The notes beneath the pieces were generated by a model. That model was given only the letters and a program-made list of their open reading frames with translations, was not told the origin of the DNA and searched no databases. DNA of 64,000 nt, taken from assembly GCF_964355755.1 (NCBI RefSeq), contig NC_092671.1:11109001-11173000 (forward strand), in the 5' to 3' direction. A program made the position numbers and the translations under genes. This DNA comes from Antedon mediterranea (lineage: Eukaryota; Echinodermata; Crinoidea; Comatulida; Antedonidae). Each line of letters starts with the position of its first letter. Positions within the stretch are counted from its first letter, which is position 1. Below, piece by piece: positions 54,464-60,193 of the stretch.

Positions 54464-57400
54464 ATGGAAAATAGGATCAAGTTAGAGTGTCGTGGTATGG
54501 TACCAGAGAAGGTATGGCATAAACATCTAGCCTAGGTTATGTTGTACTTTTGTTCATAGCTTGTTAATATTTTATCGGCTGATTTTTAGACTGCACATGT
54601 CTCAATAGAAATTTGAAAGGGATGATCGTCGAGATGTCGATCTTTCCTTGTTCCATGTGGCTCATTTGTTCATAAATTATTTGAATTGACTTGTTATTCT
54701 TTCATATTAGTCAGTTATTTAGTATGTATCACTTAGTTCATACTCTATTGTTAATATTCCTTTTATTGATAATATTTTTTACGAGGAAATTCATTTCAAA
54801 TTCCTTGATTTCTTGTTATTTTGGCACCACTCTAAATTATTCTGCGGAACTGGAAGTCGGAAATGTTCGGTTGCTTGCTTGGGAAGCTGCCTTGCCTTTT
54901 AGGCCTAGTTTTTAGAGGGTTTACGGTCTAGCTAGGCAATAGTAAACATTTAAAGGTTTTGATGTACGTTAACTATAATTTTCCGAAACATGCAAACTCA
55001 TTAAAACAACCAATAATGCCAAGTTTTGTTTTTAAACATTTTTACGACCCTGGTTCGTTTTCATCATGAGACCGTCCGTGCCGTGTGTGGTACAGTGGTG
55101 GTCTGTTTGTCAGATTTAACAAGCGGAAAAGGTTCAATACAGGGATAATAAATTTACCATATTCTGTCTTGTAAGATAAATAGATTTCTTTAACTCCATT
55201 ATATATATATTTGTTATAAAACATTAATAAAATATGTGTATACGGTGCTAGGCCTTTGTTTGGTATGTTATTCGTTAAAATGATGCGGCGTCCACACAAA
55301 AACAAAACGAGCAGGCGGTTTAATGTTTGGCGAAGCGTGGTTGTCGAGTCATTTTTGCCTTCAAACGATACCATTTTTTCCCCCATTTTTGTTGGTGAGT
55401 TTTAGGTGTAGGCTAGGCTAAGTAGTTTTAGAAAAAGTAGAATTATATATGATAGTTAATGTTGCTAGTTCTTGCTAATAAATAGTTTGTATTTCTGTTC
55501 GGCCACTACCATTATCACTGGTTGTTCTGTGTTTGTAGAGTAAGTAATGAATTAAAAAAATGACTGTATTGTTGACGTACGGTCAACTGTGTGTGGCGTG
55601 CGCCTAGCCTAGGCCAGTAGCGGGACTAAATTATAACAACCAAATCAAATGGCTAGGCCATCTTTCTAATATACTTTGTTCTGAAGATAAAAGTAAAACT
55701 GATTTAATAACATTTAAATTTAAAAATTCCATGCGATCATTTAACAATTACATCAGGCATTTGCATGTTGCTTTAGAATAAAATTAGGGATCAACTTGTT
55801 GTATACCCTATACTTGGTTTGTGTTGTGTGGAATTGTAAAGAGTAGTTTAAAGCTATTTAATTAATAGTCACATAAATATATATTTAAAAAAATTTATTT
55901 TTCATGTTCAAAATTTTCTTTCAAAAATAAAATTTGTAATAAATAGATTGCACAGTTTCAGATTTTTTAATTTAACAGGTTGCAGACTTAAATTTGGATA
56001 ACTGCAGAAGTACAGGAGTATTAGAAGGCCTCACAGATGAATTTGTTAATTTGGAATTGCTGAGTATGATCAATGTTGGTCTCACAACATTAAAAAATTT
56101 TCCGAATTTAGCAAACCTTAAAAAGGTATGTTTGAACTTATAATGTTTATAAAATATTCGGCCTACTATGCATTAAGCACTGCATCAAATAGTTTAATAT
56201 TTTGGATTTACTGAAAGTTGGTTTTTTATTTTTTCCAGCTTGAATTAAGTGATAACAGAATATCATCCGGCTTAAATCACTTAGCTTCAGGTTCACCTAA
56301 CCTCACACATCTGAATCTTAGTGGAAACAAAATTAAAGATTTTGCATCATTAGAACCATTGGTAAGTGTTATAAGTATTAGTAAGGTTTGTATGATCATG
56401 TTTACCGAGTTAAACTATTTACCCTTCTCCTCCTCCTCCCTTTTTTAATTGGTTCCAAGGAGGCTTGTCTTTAGCCTTCTCATCCACTCACTTTATCGCA
56501 CTAAATCCCATGAATAAATAAACAAAGCAAGAATGATGATAGCACTGGGCTATGAAAACCAGCTGATTCCAAACGTGCATGCCGTTTAAAATGGCCTGAC
56601 TTGCTAATTACTCAACGATTTTCTACCTAATGAATTAATACAATTTTCAAAAAGACATTTGGTGGCACAATGTTAATTGTACAACGTTTAGTTAGTAAAA
56701 ATCAATTACTTTTATAATATGAACCAAAAAAAAATGTTTTCGTTTACAGCAAGAGTTAAAACATCTCAAAGCACTTGATTTATTTAACTGTGAGGTTACG
56801 CAAGTTGAAAATTACAGAGCTAAAGTTTTCCAGTTACTACCCAATTTAAAGTATCTGGATGGTTTTGATATTAAAGAAGAAGAATCCATTGATTCCGATG
56901 ATGAAGGTAAGTAAAGTTTAGTGACTGTCAGGGATGGCATTTTTCATGGTAACTAACTGAATATGTAACACTGTCAGGGATAGCTTTTTTCATGGTAACT
57001 GACTGAACGCATAACACTGTCAGGGATGGCGTTTTTCATGGTTACTGATTGAACGCATAACACTGTCAGGGATGGCGTTTTTCATGGTTACCGACTGAAC
57101 GCATAACACTGTCAGGGATGGCGTTTTTCATGGTTACTGACTGAATGTATAATACTGTCAGGGATGGCATTTTTCATGGTTACTGACTGAACGCATAACA
57201 CTGTCAGGGATGGCGTTTTTCATGGTTACTGACTGAATGTATAATGCTGTCAGGGATGGCTGGCGTTTTTCATGGTTACTGACTGAACGCATAACACTGT
57301 CAGGGATGGCGTTTTTCATGGTTACTGACTGAATGTATAATACTGTCAGGGATGGTATTTTAAATGTTAATAATGATTGCAATTGTGATAGCAAATGTTA

Positions 57401-60193: not shown

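Follow-up and report, generated by a model that had tools for sequence, protein, structure and literature searches.

Four box C/D snoRNA-like sequences in ANP32 introns of Antedon mediterranea as probable members of the SNORD88 family

The ANP32 gene of Antedon mediterranea contains, in sense orientation within its introns 3, 5, 6, and 7, four box C/D snoRNA-like sequences of 78–80 nt that are absent from the rest of the 354-Mb genome. These elements are interpreted here as intronic paralogues within the SNORD88 (HBII-180) family of box C/D snoRNAs, with a probability of about 0.95. Coordinates refer to the window, the whole 64,000-nucleotide stretch of DNA that was analysed. The features are as follows:

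55981–60193, plus strand: host gene ANP32, from exon translations; exon boundaries read by eye, first exon not located
About 55981–56126, 56239–56361, 56750–56907, 57594–57658, 58230–58419, 59274–59390, and 60124–60193, plus strand: ANP32 exons
56527–56604, plus strand: putative SNORD88 copy 1, 78 nt, intron 3, 25.2 bits to SNORD88 (RF00604); C box 56533–56539; D′ guide 56540–56551; D′ box ATGA 56552–56555; C′-like CTGATTC 56563–56569; GTGC 56575–56578; pre-D hairpin 56581–56595; D box 56596–56599; terminal stem 56527–56531/56600–56604
58076–58153, plus strand: putative SNORD88 copy 2, 78 nt, intron 5, 28.0 bits to SNORD88; C box 58082–58088; D′ guide 58089–58100; D′ box 58101–58104; C′-like box 58112–58118; hairpin 58130–58144; D box 58145–58148
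58846–58924, plus strand: putative SNORD88 copy 3, 79 nt, intron 6, 31.9 bits to SNORD88, the best match of the genome; C box 58852–58858; D′ guide 58859–58870; D′ box 58871–58874; C′-like box 58881–58887; hairpin 58899–58915; D box 58916–58919
59530–59609, plus strand: putative SNORD88 copy 4, 80 nt, intron 7, 28.2 bits to SNORD88; C box 59536–59542; D′ guide 59543–59554; D′ box 59555–59558; C′-like TTGATTC 59566–59572; hairpin 59584–59600; D box 59601–59604

The exon translations match solved ANP32A/B structures (E about 1e-51), which upholds the host gene named in the initial annotation; its intron numbering (3, 5, 6, and 7) assumes one further 5′ exon upstream of 55981. A genome search revealed no other ANP32 locus. 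All four copies, originally described as about 79 nt long, have GCAAG...CTTGC ends, the C box ATGATGA, and the D box CTGA, so that at the RNA level AUGAUGA and CUGA lie near the ends of each element next to a 5-bp terminal stem, the arrangement that defines box C/D snoRNAs. Copies 1 and 2 are 95% alike (82-nt register) and copies 3 and 4 are nearly identical to each other, while the introns are otherwise dissimilar in sequence, as had been stated before. Intron 4, the only one among introns 3–7 without a snoRNA, contains about nine tandem copies of a 46-bp unit at 56924–57360 (TGTCAGGGATGGC...TTTTTCATGGTTACTGACTGAAC).

The number of copies was determined with a 23-base core pattern allowing up to three mismatches, which gave exactly four matches in 354 Mb, all at the ANP32 locus, as opposed to none for the reversed control. 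The copies can therefore be regarded as real and local, and neither as chance matches nor as a SINE. With a less stringent 16-base pattern (one mismatch allowed), the same four exact matches were recovered, together with six one-mismatch matches, fewer than the 45 of the reversed control. The existence of several near-identical copies could in principle reflect a dispersed SINE-like repeat that happens to sit in ANP32 introns, a possibility that the initial annotation had raised; however, exactly four genome copies, all in sense orientation within one gene, refute it within the limits of the search and leave it a practically negligible chance. The four copies are very probably selected.

A search of Rfam at the gathering cut-off returned no match for the four copies. 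At a permissive threshold, all four match SNORD88 (RF00604) end to end with 25.2–31.9 bits and with E-values of 0.0002–0.019 for a search space of 3.3 kb. A search of the whole genome ranks them first to fourth among SNORD88 matches, followed by matches that resemble background. Counting against the assignment, the bit scores fall short of the gathering score of 46, and the genome-wide E-value is 0.006 at best, for the best copy. Other weak SNORD88 matches on contig C1 were rejected as background, one of them lying in a GC-rich low-complexity repeat. A covariance model was also built from the four copies. Elsewhere in the window, several related short stretches (116–172 and 4824–5385) gave weak mir-651 matches far below the cut-off and probably represent a repeat family.

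The Rfam consensus and the copies share AGCACUGGGCU(A/C)UGA, a downstream UGA, GUGC, and the D box, and their aligned consensus reads AUGAUG-UAGCACUGGGCU(C/A)UGA...UGA...GUGC...CUGA. The D′ guide AGCACUGGGCU, which adjoins the D′ box, is identical in all four copies. The common core TAGCACTGGGCT-ATGA corresponds to the SNORD88 D′ guide followed by its D′ box; this box is AUGA and not CUGA, which counts against the assignment.

In human, SNORD88A, SNORD88B, and SNORD88C are assigned to 2′-O-methylation of 28S C3680 by mapping and knock-down studies (PMC5597630, PMC10911272). The guide of each Antedon copy forms a perfect 10-bp duplex with GCCCAGUGCU in the 28S rRNA of its own genome, starting at the second base upstream of D′, and the fifth base from D′ pairs with the C equivalent to human Cm3680. 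The complementarity to rRNA that the initial annotation had suggested looking for is therefore present, and it covers the region around C3680 in the register of the D′+5 rule. Positions at offsets of +17 (A), +23 (A), and +43 (G) from the target C agree with human Am3697, Am3703, and Gm3723. Only 0.7% of shuffled guides do equally well on the rDNA pieces available. The target was taken from 28S copies that are broken off near the R2 site and reads CTGCCCAGTGCTCTGAATGTC, letters identical to those of 28S/LSU primers published for fly and fungus. A 55-base 28S pattern gave no match in a genome search for the species' own rDNA, and the 28S stretch had no match in a scan of viral contigs. A further point against the assignment is that the guide may partly sit in an internal pairing of GCAC with GUGC. 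Many 28S fragments, several of them about 99% alike, are found on contig C2 (12–32 Mb; loci L013 and L021–L026), where they are interrupted around the R2 target site CTCTCTTAA and continue into other common sequence, the pattern that R2-type insertions in rDNA would be expected to produce.

The region upstream of the D box is where the initial annotation had seen signs of a structured non-guide or new-type box C/D RNA, one that would act via its paired core and hairpin and not by guiding methylation. A hairpin is indeed present at this position in all four copies. Its two versions, previously called unrelated, in fact align in register as [G/T]CC[A/G]T...ATGG[C/A], with one compensatory pair (55–71, G-C to U-A), two further pairs that change on one side, and an otherwise invariant stem. 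The covariation claimed for it is weak, since it comes down to this one pair, the observed score is reached by 72 of 500 shuffles, and the fold is unusual in copies 3 and 4 only (about 2–3% of shuffles as low in energy); for copies 1 and 2, 40–44% of shuffles are as low, so that their structure is no more stable than that of shuffled sequences. The terminal stem and the pairing of the GCACUGG core with CCA/GUGC are invariant among the copies. The core pairing, which had been put forward as structural evidence, provides no covariation support because it never varies.

The palindrome noted at the D-guide position likewise corresponds to a genuine hairpin, but looking for a guide at the D box had caused the one at D′ to be missed. 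The D-guide position differs between the two pairs of copies, and the two hairpin types argue against a common D guide. No match common to the copies was found for it in the available rDNA pieces, which include non-rRNA flanks and come from rDNA that is mostly masked; copy 2 only has a single 9-nt match there, equalled by 3% of shuffles. Finding a hairpin where a D-box guide would lie is compatible with a snoRNA that uses its D′ guide alone. Such a closed D side may even be usual in SNORD88, because a stem directly upstream of the D box is also possible for the Rfam consensus (in a single-sequence fold that is not better than shuffles). The kept hairpin and its compensatory pair are thus set against a D′ guide that is the same as in SNORD88 and lies in the correct register on the species' own 28S rRNA, and a non-guide RNA is considered highly improbable.

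Another role has been proposed for human HBII-180C, whose M box is CACCCCTGAGGACACAGTGCA (PMC3636044). The segment of the copies aligned to this box keeps TGA and GTGC, which could point to a SNORD88 guide that also has an mRNA-directed or other function via the M-box segment. However, the kept letters correspond to the C′-like box and to a segment complementary to the guide of the same snoRNA, and not to a long mRNA antisense element, and no target was found; the added function is therefore given a small chance. Since GUGC matches a portion of the 28S target sequence and is able to pair with the D′ guide, one may speculate that this conserved motif (CAGUGC in human) is an ancestral self-occluding switch gating guide use and not an mRNA-targeting box, although this seems rather unlikely.

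The preferred reading as SNORD88 is in line with the features of SNORD88A/B/C (HBII-180A/B/C), which have the same box order C-D′-C′-D, D′ guide AGCACUGGGCU, and 28S target C3680 (predicted for the Antedon copies), occur as several paralogous copies, carry GUGC downstream of C′, and can form a stem before D. The Antedon copies differ in their host (ANP32 as opposed to C19orf48 for human HBII-180C), in length (78–80 nt compared with 91 model positions in RF00604), in their D′ box (AUGA instead of CUGA) and hairpin sequence, and in scoring below the Rfam cut-off. In a published list, a chicken snoRNA with an 11-nt 5′ (D′) guide to 28S-C-3190 shares its row with yeast snR76 and human HBII-180a/b/c (PMC2653536). 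By this listing, and not by sequence comparison, chicken GGgCD10 and yeast snR76 are guides for the equivalent 28S/25S C; GGgCD10 also uses a 5′ (D′) guide, yet additionally has an 18S 3′ guide, in contrast to the D-side hairpin and lack of a common guide in the ANP32 copies. No report of an ANP32-hosted SNORD88 was found in the literature searched.

By analogy with the SNORD88 family, the copies would be expected to be transcribed, processed, bound by protein, and active in methylation. Spliced and debranched ANP32 introns would most likely be trimmed to a 78–80 nt RNA with the GCAAG/CTTGC stem at its ends, and this RNA would assemble with SNU13, NOP56, NOP58, and fibrillarin on its C/D and C′/D′ boxes. 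The D′ guide AGCACUGGGC is predicted to pair with 28S GCCCAGUGCU, allowing fibrillarin to methylate the 2′-OH of the C that faces the fifth guide base upstream of D′ and corresponds to human 28S C3680, while the region before the D box would fold into a hairpin, probably without a guiding role. The copies themselves may have arisen via intron-to-intron duplication inside ANP32.

A candidate new RNA class is hereby replaced by a clear assignment and a predicted methylation site. What is new is modest, namely SNORD88 in an ANP32 host and its four intra-gene copies. Taken together with the human snoRNAs, these copies suggest that SNORD88 switches host gene between lineages without a change in its guide. 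They also suggest that divergent family members escape the Rfam cut-off, and that what is conserved in the human M box did not originate in humans. The family in Antedon would thus be an ordinary housekeeping guide whose host gene differs from that in human.
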